Translations under genes and position numbers: made by a program
Shown here: positions 55,091 through 63,998 of the stretch, piece by piece
Position numbering within the stretch: the first letter of the stretch is position 1
Layout of the letters: each line of letters opens with the position of its first letter
Assembly (NCBI GenBank): GCA_022482815.1
Contig: JAKVOM010000001.1
Span: 1,550,001 to 1,614,000 of the forward strand
Direction: 5' to 3'
Origin: Acidaminococcus sp.
GTDB lineage: Bacteria; Bacillota; Negativicutes; Acidaminococcales; Acidaminococcaceae
DNA length: 64,000 bases
The notes under the pieces: generated by a model
Told to the model about the DNA's origin: nothing
The model's database searches: none
Seen by the model: the letters and a program-made list of their open reading frames with translations, nothing else

Positions 55091-57190
55091 ATGAAAACTT
55101 ATAAGAAAATATTCTGCCTTTGCGTCGCCTTGGGGCTGATCTGCTCTCTGATTCTGAACTACCAGAGAATGCAGGTTGAGGACGCCAATAAGCAGATTGA
55201 AACGGTCATGGAATCAGAAGCCATGTACCGGATTGCTCAGGAAGACGGCGTCCCTGTGCAGGATGTCTACAAAGCTTTTCGTGATATCGGTGTGACGACC
55301 ATGTCCGTTTCTGATGAGTCCCTGCTGCAGATGTCTGCCCGCGGCCGTATCGTGATGTATACGGGTGAGCAGCTGCTGCACCAATATCGGGCTTCCGGTC
55401 TGACGGCAGCCTGGCAGGCAGTAGTGAACAGCCCCGATTTCACCGTCAATGCCCTGTACTTGACAGATGGCCGCAGCCCCCGTGCTTTGGATGAAACGGT
55501 AGAAGCCCTGAAGATGCGTTTTGGCAGCAAGCGGCTGCGTCAGATAAGCACCCAGCCGCGGATTTACTGCATAGACGCTGTTACCGAAACGAATAACAAC
55601 CCATTTTCCACGGATATGCTTGCTATGCAGCAGCTTCCTCTGACCATCCTGACGGAGCGTATTGAGGAAGTCAAAAACGCCGGTTTCTATGTATGCGTAC
55701 GTCCGGTGGACTATGTGGAACGCCCTTACGAAGGGTCACCTTCTGCTGAAGAGGCCATTCGTGCGTTCTTTACTCATCTCGACAAGAGCGGAGCTGAGAT
55801 TTCTCTGCTCATTCCGTCCGGCAAGACCATGCTCGGGTATCCCGATGTGGAACCGGTTGTAGCGGAAGAAATGCGTAAGCGCAACATCACGCTCGGCATG
55901 GTGGAAAATGATATTCAGCTGCAGTTTGTTAAAATGAAAGGCCTGACCGACATGGCGCCGCTTATGGACTACCAGGTAGCCCGTACGTACGTCATTACCG
56001 TGGATGAGCAGCGCAAGATGTCTATCTACGATGCTTTCCGCCGCTGGCCGCTTTCCGATTCGGAACGCAATATCCGGGTACATCTCATCCGGACGTTCCT
56101 TACTCCGCGGGAAGGGAAGACTCTGCTGCAGACAAACCTGGACTATGTCAAGAGAATCAACGATTTCGTGGCATCCAAAGGCTACACGAGCGGCCGTGCG
56201 GATATTTATAAAGTCTACTGGCCGTCCCGGCTCTACTATGTGCCGATGGCTTTCTCCCTGGCTGCTGCCTGGTGCCTCTATATTCTGCAGCTCGGCGTGT
56301 TGAAGGAAAAGTACTATGGCCGTGCCGTGGCCGTTCTGGGAATTTTGATTGCTGCTTCCCTCTGCCTGTTGAAGGGTCATTCGCTTGTCTTCCGTCAGGC
56401 AGCGGCACTTGGGGCTGCTGTTATCTTCCCGGTGCTCGCCATGCAGCAGATGATCCGGGTCTGGGAAAACGGAAAACAAGGCGGCTCGCTGCCCGGGCTT
56501 TTAGGCCGTACGGTAGTGTACTTGTTCCTTGCTATGCTGTTTTCGCTGATTGGCGCTTCCTACCTCGGAGCCGTCCTGAGCGATATTCGTTTCCTGCTTG
56601 AACTCGATATCTACCGCGGCGTCAAGCTGACCTTCATGCTCCCGGCACTGCTTGTGCTGCTGCACTATGTAGTGCACCACGGACTCTGGCATCCGGGTGA
56701 AGGCCCGATGGTGGTCGTGCGGCGTATCCGGAAATTCATGAATCATCCTCTGACTTTCAATGTGCTCGCCATCCTCGCTGTGGCTGCCGTTGTGCTTTGG
56801 ATCTTTATCGGGCGCAGCGGTCATACGGCGGGCGTGCCGGTGCCGGCCATTGAAACAAAGATGCGCTATTTCCTTGAAGAAGCCATGTATGCAAGACCGC
56901 GTGAGAAAGAATTCCTTATCGGTCATCCGGCTTTCTTCCTGGCTGCGTGGGCCTATTGGCGCAAGCTGCCAAACTGGTTCTGCGGACTTTTCGTGGTGGC
57001 TGCCACGATTGGTCAGGGCTCGCTGGTGCAGACCTTTGCCCACATGAGAACTCCGATTTTTATGTCCTATGTCCGTGCCCTTGACGGGTATGCACTGGGT
57101 ATTGTGGGCGGCATTATTGCTGTCCTTATCTTCGAAGCCATTTATCGTTTTACCTTAAAGCATATTCCCGGGAGGCGTGACATTGAATAA
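55091..57190 (+). CDS. DUF5693 family membrane protein
   Basis: 699 residues. One N-terminal membrane anchor (about 7-24), a large extracytoplasmic domain (about 25-385), then eight or more membrane segments to the C-terminus. The gene order DUF5693-csaB is recurrent in Firmicutes, which supports the family call and suggests a role in cell-wall polymer synthesis or export. The soluble part has a TIM-barrel-like look (VKNAGFYVCVRPVDY, ISLLIPSGKTMLGYPDVEP) but no catalytic motif could be named. It starts 19 bp after prfB and overlaps csaB by 8 bp. Confidence 0.82.
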   Translation: MKTYKKIFCLCVALGLICSLILNYQRMQVEDANKQIETVMESEAMYRIAQEDGVPVQDVYKAFRDIGVTTMSVSDESLLQMSARGRIVMYTGEQLLHQYRASGLTAAWQAVVNSPDFTVNALYLTDGRSPRALDETVEALKMRFGSKRLRQISTQPRIYCIDAVTETNNNPFSTDMLAMQQLPLTILTERIEEVKNAGFYVCVRPVDYVERPYEGSPSAEEAIRAFFTHLDKSGAEISLLIPSGKTMLGYPDVEPVVAEEMRKRNITLGMVENDIQLQFVKMKGLTDMAPLMDYQVARTYVITVDEQRKMSIYDAFRRWPLSDSERNIRVHLIRTFLTPREGKTLLQTNLDYVKRINDFVASKGYTSGRADIYKVYWPSRLYYVPMAFSLAAAWCLYILQLGVLKEKYYGRAVAVLGILIAASLCLLKGHSLVFRQAAALGAAVIFPVLAMQQMIRVWENGKQGGSLPGLLGRTVVYLFLAMLFSLIGASYLGAVLSDIRFLLELDIYRGVKLTFMLPALLVLLHYVVHHGLWHPGEGPMVVVRRIRKFMNHPLTFNVLAILAVAAVVLWIFIGRSGHTAGVPVPAIETKMRYFLEEAMYARPREKEFLIGHPAFFLAAWAYWRKLPNWFCGLFVVAATIGQGSLVQTFAHMRTPIFMSYVRALDGYALGIVGGIIAVLIFEAIYRFTLKHIPGRRDIE

Positions 57191-58271
57191 GATCCTGATT
57201 TCCGGGTACTATGGATTTTCCAATGCCGGTGACGAGGCGATGCTGACGGCGATTCTGACTTCTCTTCGCAAGGCGGATCCGGATGTAGAGCTGACCGTGA
57301 TTTCCGGCCACCCTCATGTGACCGAAAGAATCCATCAGGTTCGTGCCATCCATCGTTTCGATTTCATCAAGATCCTGCGGGAAATGAAAAAGACCGACAT
57401 GCTGCTTTCGGGCGGCGGCAGTCTGCTGCAGAACGTGACAAGTTACGTCAGCCTTTTCTACTATCTGAGTATTATCGGTCTGGCTGCCCTGATGCATCGG
57501 AAAATCATGCTGTTTGCTCAGGGCATCGGGCCCATCCGGGGTGCTTTTTCCCGGTTTTTGACCCATCAGATATGCCGTCATGCCGATCTCATTACGGTGC
57601 GTGACGATGGTTCTCTGGAGGATCTCTGTGCGATGGGATTTGCCAGAGAGGAAGTCCACGTGACTTCAGATGCTGTATTTTCCCTTCCTCCCGGAAGGAA
57701 GGAAGCGGGACAGCTTGAACTTGAAGCCATCGGCATGAATCGCAGCCGTCCGGTCATCGGATTTGCGCTGCGTCACTGGAAGGGTGAAGACCGGTTTATC
57801 AAAGAGTTTGCCGCCGCGGCCGACGCGCTGAAAAAGGCTTTCGGTTGTCAGATTCTTTTCATTCCGCTGCAGTTTCCGGCTGATCAGGAACTATCGAAAG
57901 CCGTTAAGCATGAAATGCAGAACGCGGATGATGTCTACATCCTTGACCGCAAACTTTCTACGCAGTCTTATCAGGATCTCATCAGCAGCCTTAGTATGCT
58001 GATCGGGATGCGTCTTCATGCGCTCGTTTTTGCAGCATTGAATGACGTGCCTTTTATGGCTGTTTCTTATGACCCCAAAGTGGATCGCTTTGTCAGCGGT
58101 ATGAAGGGTCATGTTGTCAATACGATTGACCGCGTCACGGCCGGCGAAATTGTTTCACTGGCGCAGACGCTCAGCCACAGCGACGGCAGGCAGGAAAAGG
58201 AACAGATTGCTGCCCTGCGGCAGGAGGCGCGGGCCAATATTGACCGTGCTATCGCGTTATTACACAAGTAA
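57183..58271 (+). CDS. csaB: Polysaccharide pyruvyl transferase CsaB
   Basis: About 362 residues from TTG at 57183 (GGGAGG 7 bases upstream; GTG 57177 is too near it). Typical CsaB segments: ILISGYYGFSNAGDEAML, LLSGGGSLLQNVTS, FAQGIGPIRG and the late IGMRLHALVFAAL. CsaB adds ketal-linked pyruvate from PEP to wall polysaccharide, the anchor for SLH-domain proteins. In diderm Firmicutes SLH proteins are thought to tie the outer membrane to the wall, so the gene fits an envelope role. Coupled to DUF5693 upstream; ftsE follows after 15 bp. Confidence 0.92.
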   Translation: MNKILISGYYGFSNAGDEAMLTAILTSLRKADPDVELTVISGHPHVTERIHQVRAIHRFDFIKILREMKKTDMLLSGGGSLLQNVTSYVSLFYYLSIIGLAALMHRKIMLFAQGIGPIRGAFSRFLTHQICRHADLITVRDDGSLEDLCAMGFAREEVHVTSDAVFSLPPGRKEAGQLELEAIGMNRSRPVIGFALRHWKGEDRFIKEFAAAADALKKAFGCQILFIPLQFPADQELSKAVKHEMQNADDVYILDRKLSTQSYQDLISSLSMLIGMRLHALVFAALNDVPFMAVSYDPKVDRFVSGMKGHVVNTIDRVTAGEIVSLAQTLSHSDGRQEKEQIAALRQEARANIDRAIALLHK

Positions 58272-58286
58272 GTGGAGGTGTTTCCT

Positions 58287-58973
58287 TTGCTGGTCATGAA
58301 TCATGCCTGTAAATCTTATCCCGGCGGGGCTACGGCCCTCCAGGATGTATGCGTGCATATCAAGCCGGGGGAATTTGTGTTCCTCGTAGGCCCGAGCGGT
58401 GCCGGCAAATCGACATTTATCAAGGCCATATCCCGGGAAATCGAACTGACGAGCGGCCAGGTCCTGGTCGACGGAGTCGATGTCATGAAACTTCGTTCCA
58501 GCGAGATTCCTTATCTGCGGCGTCAGCTGGGCATTGTATTCCAGGATTACCGGCTGCTCAATGACCGCACGGTATTTGAAAATGTGGCTTTTGCCATGCA
58601 GGTCATTGAAACACCTTCCCGTAAAATCAAGGAACGCGTTCATGAAGTACTGGATCTCGTCGGGCTGGACGACCGTGCGGATGACTATCCCGGGGAAATG
58701 AGCGGCGGCGAGCAGCAGCGCGTTGCCATTGCAAGAGCGATTGTCAATGATCCGCTGCTTGTGATTGCCGACGAACCAACGGGCAACCTGGACCCGGAGA
58801 CCAGTATGGAAATCATGAATATCTTTACGGAAATCAATCGCCGCGGGACGACCATTATCATGGCCACCCATGACAAGACGATGGTTGACTACATGCAGAA
58901 ACGTGTCATTGCCATAGAGGACGGCCGCGTTGTCCGGGACGAGATCAAGGGAGTTTACGGGTATGAGATTTAG
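58287..58973 (+). CDS. ftsE: Cell division ATP-binding protein FtsE
   Basis: 228 residues from TTG at 58287, chosen because GGAGG (58275-58279) is well spaced and because the product then starts [14 protein letters not shown] like other FtsE proteins. Walker [10 protein letters not shown], signature [15 protein letters not shown], Walker [15 protein letters not shown]-loop ATHDKTMV. FtsE forms a complex with FtsX and transmits ATP binding to a wall hydrolase outside the membrane. It overlaps ftsX by 11 bp. Confidence 0.95.
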
Positions 58974-59850
58974 TACAAAGTGGTATTACTTAAAAGAAAC
59001 TTTTAAATCCATCAAACGCAATTCCCTGATGAGTATTGCTTCCATCTCGACGGTCGCGCTTTCTATCCTCGTGCTGGGACTCTTCCTTGTCATGGTGCTG
59101 AACGTCAATAACATTGCCCGGTATCTGGAAAACCAGGTACAGGTAACGGTATATATGGAAGATTCGGCGAATGCGGCACAGCGCAGGCAGGTGGAGCAAA
59201 AGCTGAAACTGACACAGGGTGTTATGGAAGTCAAGGCTGTAACCAAGGAGCAGGCACTCAAGAAATTCAAGGAGCGTCTGCGAGAACAGCAGAAACTGCT
59301 TGATGCCCTGGGTGAGGAAAACCCGTTCCCTTATTCCTTTGAGGTAAAGGTCGATAAGCCGGAAAGGATTCAGCAGATTGTACCTGAAATCGAAAATATG
59401 CCCGGTGTAGAAACGGCAAAATTCGGTCAGGAAGTGGTGAAACACATATTCCAGTTGACACGAATTTTGCGCCTGGGCGGCATTTTACTTATTGTGATGC
59501 TGGCCATTGCCACGCTCTTTATCATCTCCAATACCATTCGGATTACCGTCTTTGCACGGCGCAGGGAAGTCAGTATCATGAAATTTGTCGGCGCAACGAA
59601 CTGGTTTATCCGCTGGCCGTTCCTTCTGGAAGGGATGATTATGGGATTTATCGGGGCACTCATTGCGTCGGCAGCCCTTTATGAGATTTATGAGACCGTA
59701 CAGGCTAAGATTTATGCCACACTGGCATTTTTCCCGCTCCTGCCGCTCTGGCCTTTCATGGGGTATCTCTGTGCATGCCTGGTTCTCGTCGGTACGTTTA
59801 TCGGCGCCGCAGGCAGTGCTATTTCGCTGCGGAAATTCCTGGATGTATAA
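58963..59850 (+). CDS. ftsX: Cell division protein FtsX
   Basis: 295 residues from the ATG at 58963 (GGGAG upstream); the frame is open 11 codons further back in ftsE. Four membrane segments: one near 25-45, then three at about 170-290. A large extracytoplasmic loop (about 50-165) lies between the first two and is the part that contacts the murein hydrolase or its activator. ISNTIRITVFARRREVSIMK and FVGATNWFIRWPFLLEG are typical FtsX/MacB-type permease stretches. The hydrolase gene follows 12 bp on. Confidence 0.95.
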   Translation: MRFSTKWYYLKETFKSIKRNSLMSIASISTVALSILVLGLFLVMVLNVNNIARYLENQVQVTVYMEDSANAAQRRQVEQKLKLTQGVMEVKAVTKEQALKKFKERLREQQKLLDALGEENPFPYSFEVKVDKPERIQQIVPEIENMPGVETAKFGQEVVKHIFQLTRILRLGGILLIVMLAIATLFIISNTIRITVFARRREVSIMKFVGATNWFIRWPFLLEGMIMGFIGALIASAALYEIYETVQAKIYATLAFFPLLPLWPFMGYLCACLVLVGTFIGAAGSAISLRKFLDV

Positions 59851-59862
59851 GGAGGCGCTTGG

Positions 59863-60996
59863 ATGAAGAAAGAAGCAGCTGTGCTTTGTGCACTCCTCCT
59901 GATGGTAAATTTTGCCTCGCCGGTGACCTGGGCTGAAACCATCGAAGATAAAAAAGCGGAACTCGAAGAAGTACAGCGCCAGATGGACAGTAAGGATGCC
60001 GAACGGGAATCCAACCAGCGCCGTATCAATAATGCCGTGGAAGCATTGATGGAAGCCCGCAGACAGCTAGCCGAGGCCCAGCGTGAGCTGGCGGTTGTCG
60101 AAGCGCAGCAGGAAGTATTGGAAGCAAAGATTCGCGGCAACGAACGGGCACTTTCCATTAAACAGAAAGAATTTGATAATACGCGCGAAATCTACAAAAA
60201 GAGACTGCGCGATATTTATGAAAATGGTCAGGTCAATTATCTGGACGTGCTGCTGGGGTCTGTGGATTTCAGCGATTTTGCCTCCCGTATGTATCTGCTG
60301 CAGCGAATCATTCGTCAGGATACACGCCTCATTGATACGCTGACAAAGCAAAAAGAAGAACTGCAGGCAAGACAGGCTGAACTCGAAGAAAATAAGAGAC
60401 AGCTCGATGCGAACCACGAGCAGGTCGTGGCAAAGCAGGAACTTGTAGCGCAAAAACAGCAGGAACAGCAGGCACTGTATGAACAGGCGATGGCTGATAA
60501 GGCGCGCCTGGATGCCGAATATGAAGAGCTGCAGGAAAACAGCCGTCAGATTACGGCCATGATCAAACAGATGGAAGAAGCAGGCCGCATGGCCGCGCAT
60601 GGTCACGGCACGGGTCAATTCAGCTGGCCGGTTTACGGCGAGATTACGTCTCCTTTTGGCTGGCGTATCCATCCAATCTGGCATTCGTCTATTTTCCATG
60701 CCGGCATTGATATTGGTGCCGACTATGGTGACCCCGTATCTGCCGCAGATTCCGGTACGGTCATTTATGCCGGCTGGATGGGCGGTTACGGCTACGCTGT
60801 CATGATCGATCACGGCGGCGGGCTGGTTACACTTTACGGACATAATTCGTCGCTTACGGTAGGCGTAGGCGAAAATGTCGCGAAGGGGCAGACTATTGCC
60901 CTGGCCGGCAGTACGGGCAACTCGACGGGTCCGCACTGTCATTTTGAGGTGCGTGTCCACGGTGAAGTGGTCCAGCCTCTGGATTATTTACCATAA
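59863..60996 (+). CDS. FtsEX-linked murein hydrolase: coiled coil plus M23 (LytM) peptidase
   Basis: 377 residues. Signal peptide 1-26 (ending TWAE). Long charged coiled coil about 27-245 (EDKKAELEEVQRQMDSKDAE and later repeats), the part expected to meet FtsX. Then an M23 domain about 255-377 with zinc ligands H279 and D283 (FHAGIDIG) and the HxH pair H358/H360 (GPHCHFEV), all intact. E. coli EnvC has the same layout but a dead LytM domain; this one should be an active endopeptidase, like PcsB-type partners elsewhere. GGAGG precedes the ATG. Confidence 0.92.
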   Translation: MKKEAAVLCALLLMVNFASPVTWAETIEDKKAELEEVQRQMDSKDAERESNQRRINNAVEALMEARRQLAEAQRELAVVEAQQEVLEAKIRGNERALSIKQKEFDNTREIYKKRLRDIYENGQVNYLDVLLGSVDFSDFASRMYLLQRIIRQDTRLIDTLTKQKEELQARQAELEENKRQLDANHEQVVAKQELVAQKQQEQQALYEQAMADKARLDAEYEELQENSRQITAMIKQMEEAGRMAAHGHGTGQFSWPVYGEITSPFGWRIHPIWHSSIFHAGIDIGADYGDPVSAADSGTVIYAGWMGGYGYAVMIDHGGGLVTLYGHNSSLTVGVGENVAKGQTIALAGSTGNSTGPHCHFEVRVHGEVVQPLDYLP

Positions 60997-61011
60997 AAAG
61001 AAGGGGTGTCT

Positions 61012-62163
61012 ATGGGCAAAAAAAGATTTGGCATAGGCGCGCTCATCCTGACCTTCGTCCTTTCTTTCGCCGCCTTTGGCGCGGCAGCTTACTTTTTGCT
61101 CACCCGCTGGGTGAGTTCTCCTGTCGGCTTTGTTCAGCTCGGCCGGACGCTGCACTTGATTCAGTCTTATTATGTGGATGAAAGTAATTCGGATGATCTT
61201 TACGCCGGTGCTATCCGCGGTATGGTCAAGGAATTGAATGACCCATATTCGGAGTACCTGGACAGCAAAGACTTTGAAGCGCTGTCCAATATGACGGAAG
61301 GTCATTTTGGCGGGGTAGGGCTCGTCATGGGTATGAAAGATCAGCAATTTATCGTTGTATCCCCGATTGAAGATACCCCGGCGTACCGTGCCGGAATCAA
61401 AGCAGGTGATATCATTACCCGCGTCGATGATACGGATCTTGCCGGGATGACGCTGACCGATGTTGTAAAACTGCTGCGTGGGGCCGACGGTACGACCGTT
61501 CGCGTGACCTATAAACGCGGCGATGATGAGAAGGAAACGACAATTACGCGTTCCGAGATCAAGATTCGGAGCGTCTACGGAAAGATGGAGGACGACCACA
61601 TTGGTTATATCCGCATCACCAACTTTAACGCGGATACGGCAAAGGACTTTGAAAGCGAGCTGAAGAAACTGGAAGACCAGGGAATGCAGGCGCTTGTCCT
61701 CGACCTTAGGGATAATCCCGGCGGACTCCTCGAAAGCGGAGTCGATGTGGCACGTCACCTTGTGCCGAAAGGCCCGATTGTTTCGCTGAAGGACCGTAAC
61801 GGTCATACCGAAGTGGAGACCTCGGACCTTGAAGCGGTCAAGTATCCGCTTGCCGTGCTGGTGAACCACGGGACGGCGAGCGCTTCCGAAATTGTGTCCG
61901 GAGCCATCCAGGATACGAAAGCCGGCCGCTTGTTCGGAACGAAGACGTTTGGTAAAGGAGTAGTCCAGAATGTCTTTATGCTTTCTCCGAATACGGCTGT
62001 AAAGCTGACGATAGCGAAGTATTACACACCGAGCGGACGCAGTATCCATAAGGTGGGTATTGAGCCGGATGAAGTCGTGGAAGCAAAGGACGAACAGGGA
62101 AAGAACCAGCTGGAGGCGGCCGAAGCATATCTGCGGGAACAGCTCAAGGCTGGCAAGGAATAA
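61012..62163 (+). CDS. C-terminal processing peptidase (S41 family, CtpA type)
   Basis: 383 residues from the ATG at 61012 (AAGGGG 5 bases upstream). N-terminal anchor about 8-28, helical segment, PDZ domain about 95-180 (GGVGLVMGMKDQQFIVVSPIED), then the S41 core. The Ser/Lys dyad is visible as the serine in NHGTASASE (290-292) and K315 (TFGKGVVQN). CtpA-type proteases trim exported proteins and, in several bacteria, degrade wall hydrolases. The position 15 bp after the M23 gene makes turnover of that hydrolase a reasonable guess. Confidence 0.93.
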   Translation: MGKKRFGIGALILTFVLSFAAFGAAAYFLLTRWVSSPVGFVQLGRTLHLIQSYYVDESNSDDLYAGAIRGMVKELNDPYSEYLDSKDFEALSNMTEGHFGGVGLVMGMKDQQFIVVSPIEDTPAYRAGIKAGDIITRVDDTDLAGMTLTDVVKLLRGADGTTVRVTYKRGDDEKETTITRSEIKIRSVYGKMEDDHIGYIRITNFNADTAKDFESELKKLEDQGMQALVLDLRDNPGGLLESGVDVARHLVPKGPIVSLKDRNGHTEVETSDLEAVKYPLAVLVNHGTASASEIVSGAIQDTKAGRLFGTKTFGKGVVQNVFMLSPNTAVKLTIAKYYTPSGRSIHKVGIEPDEVVEAKDEQGKNQLEAAEAYLREQLKAGKE

Positions 62164-62181
62164 ACGGGGAGGCACGAAACC

Positions 62182-63912
62182 ATGAGTACAATTCAAAATT
62201 GGTACCGCGGCTTTACGGCGTACGCGGCCACGGATGCAGGGAAAATCGGTCTCTGGAATTATGCAGTCATACTGATCTGTGCTCTCGTTATCTGTGTGCT
62301 GATTCTGCTGATACTGTATTCTTTCCGTACCAGGCAGATGCGGCGTGAACGCGGTATCAAGTACCGTATTTCCAAATTGATTTCTTATCTGTGCACTGCC
62401 TATGAGTCCGTCCAGGAAGTGGACTGGAAACACCAGACGACGTCCCGCTTTTTCTGTGATGGGACAAAGGTGCTGGTAGAACAGCGTAAATTCGGCTCTG
62501 TTGCAGATCTTCTGGGCGAGTTTCATCCCGGCGATCTGGTGCGCTATTCTCCGGAAAACCTGCGCGTCGAATTTGAAAAAGCGATGAAGACATGCGGTAT
62601 GTTCGAATTCTCCGCCCGCATTAAGGGCAAGGATGGAAACTATCAATGGATGTCTTTCCTCGTGCAGGGTGTCCGCAAGGACAAGACCCACAACCGGAAT
62701 TTCCTTCTCCTGGAACACCGCATTGATGATCAAAAGAGCCAGGAAATGGAACGGCGCGCACAGCTGAGTGTGGCAATGAGTCAGGCCCGCGATGACGCGG
62801 AAGCCAAGGGCCAGTTTATGGCCCGCATCAGCCGCGATACGAAGGAAGCCTTGAATTCCATTATGGGCTATCTGACCCTGGCCGGTGAAGAAGAAAATGT
62901 TGACCAGCGCAAGGGTTATGTCCGGGACTGCCAGGAACAGGTTCGCTATCTGCTGAATGTCCTTGGGGATGTCATTGATCTTTCCGCTATGGAAAATGGC
63001 ACACTGGCCCTGCAGAAAGAACCGTTTGAACTGGATACTGTACTGGAACGACTGCGTTCTCTCTTTAGTCAGGAAGCACAGAGCCGCGGCATTACCTTTG
63101 AGTTTAAGACGGAAGAGGCTGAGCATCTGACGCTCATCGGTGACCGGCTTCGCTTCGAACAGGTCATGATGAATCTGCTTTCCAATGCGATGCTTTTCAC
63201 TGAGAAAGGCTCTCGTGTGGGCTGCACCCTGCGCCATAAAGATCAAAAGGGACGGAAAACCATTCTGGAGATTGCTGTGGAATGCGATGGAAAAGCGATT
63301 CCGGAAGATATGCTCAACAAGGTGTTCCTGCCCTTTGAAATGGCTTCGCAGTTCGAAAAATCTTCTGTTCACGGCGGACTGGGCCTCATGGTTACGCACA
63401 ACCTTGTCCATGTGCTCGGCGGCCTGATTAAGGCTGACAACAATGAGGGCAAAGGAATTCGCTTCCTCGTGGAACTGCCTTTTGGCAGACAGAAGAAAAA
63501 GAGCGGTGCCGCAGGCGGAAAAGATTTTACGAGCGGCAAGCGCCTGCTCGTGGCTGAAGATAATGACCTGAGTGCACAGGTCATCGAAAAACTGCTGGAT
63601 TCGACAGGCTTTATCCTGGACCGCGCAAACGACGGCAAAGAAGCCTGTGAGAAATTTGGCAGCAAACCAGCTGGCTATTATAGTGCTATCCTGATGGATC
63701 TGGATATGCCGAACGTCGATGGCTGCGAAGCGACGAGGCTGATTCGTCTTTCCGACCACGCTGATGCCAAGAAGATTCCAATCCTTGCCATGACGGAAAA
63801 CGTACTCTCCGAAGATGTGGCCAAGGCAATTGAAAGCGGCATGAACGGTCAGGTGACAAAGCCAATCGATAAAGCGCAGCTTTTGCAGACGCTGAAAGGG
63901 TTTGTGGAATAA
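62182..63912 (+). CDS. Membrane hybrid histidine-kinase-like protein lacking the phosphoacceptor His
   Basis: 576 residues. One membrane helix (about 27-47), a PAS-like region (about 65-190), then a degenerate kinase: the H-box reads FMARISRDTKEALNSIMGY where SHE would be expected, so R218 replaces the phosphorylated His. The N-box (NLLSNAMLFTEKG) is kept; G1 (CDGKAIPED) is eroded; G2 (HGGLGLMVTHNL) is partly kept. The C-terminal receiver (about 452-576) is complete: E459/D460, D506 (LMDLDMP), the threonine in AMTEN and lysine in TKPID. It may receive phosphate from another kinase or act as a phosphorylation-independent sensor. Last gene before the terminator at 63943; GGGAGG precedes the ATG. 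Confidence 0.85.
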   Translation: MSTIQNWYRGFTAYAATDAGKIGLWNYAVILICALVICVLILLILYSFRTRQMRRERGIKYRISKLISYLCTAYESVQEVDWKHQTTSRFFCDGTKVLVEQRKFGSVADLLGEFHPGDLVRYSPENLRVEFEKAMKTCGMFEFSARIKGKDGNYQWMSFLVQGVRKDKTHNRNFLLLEHRIDDQKSQEMERRAQLSVAMSQARDDAEAKGQFMARISRDTKEALNSIMGYLTLAGEEENVDQRKGYVRDCQEQVRYLLNVLGDVIDLSAMENGTLALQKEPFELDTVLERLRSLFSQEAQSRGITFEFKTEEAEHLTLIGDRLRFEQVMMNLLSNAMLFTEKGSRVGCTLRHKDQKGRKTILEIAVECDGKAIPEDMLNKVFLPFEMASQFEKSSVHGGLGLMVTHNLVHVLGGLIKADNNEGKGIRFLVELPFGRQKKKSGAAGGKDFTSGKRLLVAEDNDLSAQVIEKLLDSTGFILDRANDGKEACEKFGSKPAGYYSAILMDLDMPNVDGCEATRLIRLSDHADAKKIPILAMTENVLSEDVAKAIESGMNGQVTKPIDKAQLLQTLKGFVE

Positions 63913-63942: not shown

Positions 63943-63998
63943 AACAGGAGTTGTGAGGAATTTACGATGCGTATTTTCTTCACAGCTCCTGTTTTTTA
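63943..63998 (+). terminator. Terminator of the envelope operon
   Basis: AACAGGAGTTGTGAGGAA / TTCTTCACAGCTCCTGTT with T6 tail; another relative of the GCTGTGAA stem family. Confidence 0.85.

Follow-up and report, generated by a model that had tools for sequence, protein, structure and literature searches.

A predicted hybrid pseudo-histidine kinase without its phospho-accepting histidine, encoded last in the ftsEX-hydrolase-ctpA cluster of Acidaminococcus

The gene that closes the ftsEX-hydrolase-ctpA cluster in the window (the whole analysed stretch of Acidaminococcus DNA, 64,000 nucleotides long) encodes a homolog of hybrid histidine kinases in which arginine stands in place of the phosphorylated histidine. 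The proposal of the first-pass annotation that this is a real pseudokinase is borne out by sequence: the loss of the histidine is fixed in the genus, the gene is under selection by its dN/dS values, and the receiver is intact. The reading that we favour, and to which we give an even chance, is that of a hybrid pseudo-histidine kinase, inherited vertically, which would be kept for non-catalytic work as a modulator or scaffold, with the receiver as an optional phospho-input. Studies of pseudo-histidine kinases in bacteria are few, and the relatives compared here retain at one fixed chromosomal place the intact hybrid (genome G015), the loss of the histidine alone (genome G019), the loss of the ATP site and the loss of the receiver, a staged series that makes the order of losses, and the purpose of a histidine kinase fold free of catalysis, directly testable.

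Table 1. Features of the kinase gene and of its cluster, with positions in the window.
Feature	Position	Strand	Basis
csaB (polysaccharide pyruvyl transferase)	57177..58271	+	TIGR03609 over cut-off
ftsE	58272..58973	+	TIGR02673 over cut-off
ftsX; ORF opens at 58930, ATG at 58963 used	58963..59850	+	NF038347 over cut-off
M23 peptidase with PcsB-type coiled coil (EnvC/PcsB-like)	59863..60996	+	PF01551 and PF24568 over cut-off
ctpA (S41 C-terminal processing protease), 18 bp upstream of kinase	61006..62163	+	TIGR00225 over cut-off
Hybrid pseudo-histidine kinase gene	62182..63912	+	Open frame, 576 aa plus stop; orthologue in 9/9 genus genomes
Single predicted transmembrane helix, about residues 26-48, behind short N-terminal segment	62257..62325	+	Hydropathy peak; model helix 24-75
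PAS-like cytoplasmic region, about residues 124-180 (weak assignment)	62551..62721	+	PAS_3 E 0.12, sub-cut-off; helix-strand pattern, pLDDT about 42-71
DHp (HisKA) domain, residues 191-275	62752..63006	+	Pfam; modelled long helices 183-236 and 240-271
R218 (CGC) replacing the phospho-accepting histidine	62833..62835	+	Alignment
E222 and A223 replacing the ExxT phosphatase Thr and the H-box Pro	62845..62850	+	9/9 genus orthologues
Degenerate CA (HATPase_c) domain, residues 276-436	63007..63489	+	Pfam, model, alignment
L338 replacing the N-box Lys	63193..63195	+	9/9 genus orthologues
G1 box: C368 replacing Asp, A372 replacing the second Gly	63283..63297	+	C368 in 9/9 genus orthologues; second Gly gone in 9/9
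Receiver domain, residues 452-576, with D506 at 63697-63699	63535..63909	+	Pfam; residues intact in 5/5 receiver-bearing genus orthologues
Long hairpin then U-run, probable intrinsic terminator closing the cluster	63943..63993	+	MFE -44 kcal/mol, z -9.8

Domain architecture and motif residues

Pfam matches over the cut-off were obtained for HisKA (residues 208-273), HATPase_c (320-434) and Response_reg (456-571), the domain set of a hybrid histidine kinase. In an AlphaFold2 model with 28 relatives as input (mean pLDDT 73.8, pTM 0.54), the DHp, CA and receiver domains mostly reach pLDDT 74-97, and residues 55-126 and the ATP-lid region 388-397 fall below 50; the model confidently predicts that the DHp-CA-receiver fold is kept. 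A Foldseek search against the PDB ranked ShkA (6qrj) best, followed by HK853 complexes; DivL (4q20) came in at rank 18 and RetS further down, at rank 30. On the minus strand, a 923-aa open frame (60988-63759) spans the end of the hydrolase gene, ctpA and the kinase gene; long antisense frames also lie over the kinase orthologues, and this frame is probably a codon-usage shadow.

The first-pass annotation had pointed out arginine for histidine and alanine for the conserved proline in the H-box, and both are seen, as R218 and A223, the alanine being identical in all nine genus orthologues; its eroded G1 box likewise reappears in the alignment (D368 to C, G372 to A), and further losses come on top of those then described (K338 to L, T222 to E). 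By the usual naming of motif roles, position 338 is that of the N-box lysine and position 368 that of the G1 aspartate with its contacts. The column of the second G1 glycine holds A, T, R, E or K in the nine genus orthologues; N331, N335, G370 and the G2 glycines are still present in the CA domain. Two attributes of a functional kinase are therefore missing, the phospho-accepting histidine (0/9 genus orthologues) and the ATP-site residues, replaced by L338, C368 and A372. By motif, all three enzymatic activities (autophosphorylation, phosphotransfer and phosphatase) are predicted to be gone; HExxT is described as the phosphatase motif in the accessible part of PMC5992135. As a histidine kinase homolog with a lost catalytic feature, the protein falls under the definition of a pseudo-histidine kinase given in PMC12632262, where such proteins lack one or more histidine kinase functions and are integrated in two-component networks. 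The receiver, which had been described as intact, has all of E459, D460, D506, T538 and K560 by alignment, the residues of a phosphorylatable PF00072 domain.

Two cysteines, C368 (63283-63285) and Cys348 (63223-63225), are conserved in the degenerate CA domain of 9/9 genus members, and Cys348 is invariant in 11/11 orthologues; a redox or structural role for this pair is possible.

Orthologues, order of losses and selection

An orthologue of the kinase is present in 9/9 genus genomes. Residue 218 is arginine in G000, G001, G003 and G005 (codons CGC, AGG, CGT and CGC), lysine in G008 (AAG) and glutamine in G002, G004, G006 and G007 (CAG in 4/4); E222, A223, L338 and C368 are identical in all nine. 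The occurrence of R, K and Q implies that residue 218 itself is not the selected feature. The alignment with orthologues that the first-pass annotation had recommended came out in favour of the pseudokinase: what is conserved is a residue other than histidine, not arginine as such, and the histidine-bearing orthologues that would have pointed to a single mutation are absent from the genus (0/9). With the histidine missing in 9/9 genus orthologues, a single mutation or sequencing error is ruled out. Another nearby histidine, the second objection raised at that time, was not found by a scan of residues 186-280 of the window protein, nor was another DHp histidine found in three Q-clade proteins or in G005, although G008 has histidine at two other DHp positions. 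The four glutamine species encode proteins of 444 aa that consist of the dead kinase core without a receiver; downstream, the next plus-strand ORF begins 20-81 bp past the stop, and no orthologue receiver lies there. In three of these four species, the second N-box asparagine is gone as well. With the receiver dispensable in four species, it has to be the core that carries the conserved function; the receiver would then be an extra input.

Among control hybrid kinases (the best 80 of 557 relatives), histidine occupies the 218 column in 80/80 and aspartate the G1 Asp column in 78/80; lysine at the 338 column in 80/80 control kinases is a partly pre-selected count, one search pattern having covered the N-box. 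These controls came from a contig scan with generic N-box and F-box patterns and served as control and structure input only; no orthologue of the kinase lineage was among the matches listed from that scan. At other HisKA loci of the genus, histidine was present in 30/30 that were read, out of 52 non-orthologue matches. A published survey gives 722 of 76,471 HisKA domains (0.9%) without the histidine (PMC12632262), and a further source about 1%, with Arg and Gln among the substitutes (PMC5361649).

An order-wide search recovered the kinase lineage in 11/63 genomes from three genera (E at most 1e-75). The orthologue in G019, from another genus, has 719 aa, two receivers, R218 and S223, and retains T222, K338 and D368; that in G015, from the third genus, has 752 aa, two receivers, H218, P223 and an intact ATP site. 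The comparison indicates that the histidine of G015 marks the ancestral state, as opposed to a single mutation in the window gene. A CtpA tree that took in 8 of the 43 other ctpA loci recovers the 11 genomes that carry the kinase as a group (100/99), and likewise the genus (99/98), the position of G015 versus G019 not being settled by this tree. Kinase-core trees join G019 to the genus, with support of 97/95, or of 98/95 in the tree without the H-box columns, which carries a long-branch warning; G015 falls outside. Since G019 combines R218 with an intact ATP site, and G015 has a normal H-box, the histidine was apparently lost first. The simplest history, drawn from these two outgroup sequences, is that histidine changed to arginine once, before the ATP site decayed, and that one receiver and then, in one subclade, the other were lost. 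The C-terminal receiver of G019 is without the D460 and T538 equivalents and its first receiver retains the acidic and phospho-Asp motifs; the genus lost the first receiver and retains the C-terminal one, opposite to the motif state of G019, and the working receiver seems to have switched between them.

Nei-Gojobori dN/dS over the whole protein was 0.107, 0.178, 0.099, 0.122, 0.119 and 0.190 in six pairs, the values of the two receiver-bearing pairs being rough, with dS of 1.5-1.7 near saturation. These ratios indicate purifying selection on the kinase gene, and the same range applies to the core retained by the four receiver-less species; a pseudogene is ruled out by the open frame in 9/9 genomes and by dN/dS of 0.10-0.19. 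Between G000 and the four other receiver-bearing species, identity is 88, 74, 82 and 73% in the DHp domain, 78, 68, 67 and 56% in the receiver and 71, 63, 65 and 51% in the CA domain; DHp and receiver thus rank highest or close to it. In the clade without a receiver, terminal branch length as a ratio to that of the receiver-bearing R clade comes to 0.99 in the DHp domain, 0.31 in the PAS-like region and 0.18 in CA. In two control kinases, the same ratio for DHp vs. CA is 0.94 vs. 0.44 (set A) and 0.15 vs. 0.45 (set B), a comparison in which the Fisher values rest on approximate counts and the set B lengths point to mixed orthology; a dependence of DHp constraint on the receiver is suggestive only.

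Comparison with previously described kinases

DivL of Caulobacter crescentus resembles the window kinase in its histidine kinase fold without the phospho-accepting histidine, in the conservation of a non-histidine residue among orthologues, and in DHp docking; the accessible parts of the reports record no kinase or phosphatase activity for DivL, and describe a core that reads the phosphorylation state of a regulator and acts on another kinase (PMC4211667, PMC5361649). DivL has tyrosine at this position, retains its N, G1, F and G2 boxes (PMC4211667, accessible part), carries several PAS domains and belongs to a different operon and phylum, whereas the window kinase lineage has Arg, Lys or Gln, broken G1 and N boxes and a receiver in 5/9 species; it does not qualify as a DivL. 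RetS of Pseudomonas, also with a degenerate HATPase domain, is described in the accessible part of PMC5992135 as a kinase-dead hybrid that takes phosphoryl groups on its receiver and inhibits another kinase. The same source gives RetS a retained HExxT, more than one receiver and a partner, GacS, that bears an Hpt domain; the window kinase, with HExxT lost (T222 to E), a single receiver and Hpt in 0/9 genus genomes, is not a RetS either.

The Caulobacter hybrid kinase CCNA_03265 is likewise missing the conserved histidine and retains the receiver Asp; its authors allow for a nearby histidine, and graded loss or an operon link is not described in the accessible part of the report (PMC11481889). 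ChrS of Corynebacterium glutamicum is a catalytically dead histidine kinase that nevertheless alters signalling through a paralogous kinase; in contrast to the window kinase, it arose by a laboratory-evolved frameshift in one strain, with no receiver and no fixed lineage (PMC9491836, accessible part). PMC6791715 was dropped as a precedent, its subject being Ser/Thr pseudokinases. A literature search, with most subscription journals outside its scope, listed no paper that deals with this protein or that places a pseudokinase in an FtsEX operon; pseudo-histidine kinases are already known, as is a hybrid without the histidine, and the graded decay and the FtsEX context appear to be new.

Operon context, possible partners and function

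The order prfB-DUF5693-csaB-ftsE-ftsX-M23 hydrolase-ctpA-kinase is found in 9/9 genus genomes and in G019, in agreement with the place at the end of the cluster reported at first; the 4.5 kb contig of G015 holds the M23 gene (partial), ctpA and the kinase. The gap between ctpA and the kinase measures 17-21 bp in the nine genus genomes, 21 bp in G019 and 35 bp in G015. ctpA occurs in 54/59 family genomes, and in the 43 of them without the kinase lineage no kinase adjoins ctpA on its strand (in seven cases the sequence runs on for about 1 kb or less beyond ctpA, and G070 carries a kinase-like ORF on the opposite strand at a distance of about 2.5 kb); the link is therefore clade-specific and dispensable for the module. 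A promoter and terminator scan returned sites no more numerous than in shuffles. A role as scaffold or modulator of wall hydrolysis is plausible, operon membership being its one link; if that link is functional, the kinase would constitute a non-catalytic control point for FtsEX-driven wall hydrolysis in outer-membrane bacteria.

Counting this kinase, the window genome encodes six receivers and six HisKA domains; the other five of each form adjacent pairs, and neither a regulator nor a kinase of these families was found unpaired. A search for Hpt (PF01627) gave 0/9 genus genomes, none in G015, two places in G019 and 21/59 family genomes. Because the genus has no Hpt, an onward phosphorelay from D506 via a standard Hpt is unlikely; an atypical Hpt could escape the search. 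The three of the five other kinases that were checked as WalK orthologues all score under the WalK cut-off. A defence protein was also considered and rejected, with no PADLOC match.

Under the favoured reading, the kinase would have abandoned autophosphorylation and phosphotransfer and, judged by motif, its phosphatase activity as well. A membrane-anchored dimer would bind a partner with its PAS-like/DHp/CA core and so set that partner's activity, after the fashion of DivL and RetS; candidate partners are a second sensor kinase, a response regulator, or the machinery of FtsEX, hydrolase and CtpA. In the receiver-bearing species, the scaffold might be switched when one of the five other kinases phosphorylates D506, or when the receiver binds to the DHp; in the four receiver-less species the core would act without that input.

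The phosphorelay sink that the first-pass annotation had entertained would have the receiver accept phosphoryl groups from at least one of the five other kinases and let them hydrolyse, much as RetS draws them from GacS. Mechanism 1 of RetS provides a precedent (PMC5992135, accessible part), and the receiver residues are all intact beside a dead kinase in 5/5 receiver-bearing genus orthologues; but as a main function the sink is weakened, and in our judgement improbable, given that 4/9 genus species without a receiver retain the dead core, that Hpt is absent from the genus, and that RetS has an intact HExxT which the window kinase does not. Continued kinase activity, through an alternative phospho-acceptor or in trans within a heterodimer, has the proposal of a nearby histidine or heterodimerisation for CCNA_03265 as a parallel (PMC11481889, accessible part), and the two other DHp histidines of G008 might serve; it is highly improbable where the scanned region of the window protein, three Q-clade proteins and G005 offer no histidine, and where the G1 Asp, the second G1 Gly and the N-box Lys are gone in 9/9.

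It is conceivable, at low probability, that the wall-cleaving FtsEX-hydrolase-CtpA machinery has gained a dedicated regulator in the form of a dead receptor-type kinase; the core of this kinase would act directly on the machinery, and its receiver would gate wall hydrolysis post-translationally for another two-component pathway, an input later dropped by one subclade. A direct structural cofactor of this machinery, which would bind FtsX, the hydrolase or CtpA via the transmembrane helix or the cytoplasmic side and have left two-component signalling altogether, would be consistent with the last place after ctpA in 9/9 genus genomes, G019 and G015, with the loss of the receiver from a whole subclade and the lack of a free Hpt, and with the need of Bacillus subtilis FtsEX for the membrane cofactors SweC/SweD (PMC6705773, accessible part). 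However, the receiver residues and the DHp domain are well conserved in five species, which suggests that phospho-signalling still matters there, and the gene is not beside ctpA in 43 other family genomes; we consider a purely structural role unlikely. The progression from G015 through G019 and the genus to the Q clade resembles stepwise erosion, as expected of a decaying remnant of an ancestral hybrid kinase that lost the histidine, then the ATP site, then one receiver and then the other, and the second N-box Asn missing in 3/4 Q-clade species points the same way; yet such decay is quite improbable for a gene that is open in 9/9 genomes, with low dN/dS in all six pairs, four identical replacements in 9/9 and operon spacing kept.

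At the upstream end of the cluster, a DUF5693 protein of 699 aa (55091-57190) directly precedes csaB-ftsE-ftsX in 9/9 genus genomes and G019, and could be one more component of the same wall or outer-membrane-tethering module. Downstream, just past the window (L031:10172-17800), about 7.6 kb separates the kinase from nfo in the window genome, a stretch that holds an IS110-family transposase besides GST-like, MmgE/PrpD and ABC transporter genes; most other genus members have nfo close behind the kinase, and G008 also has intervening genes.
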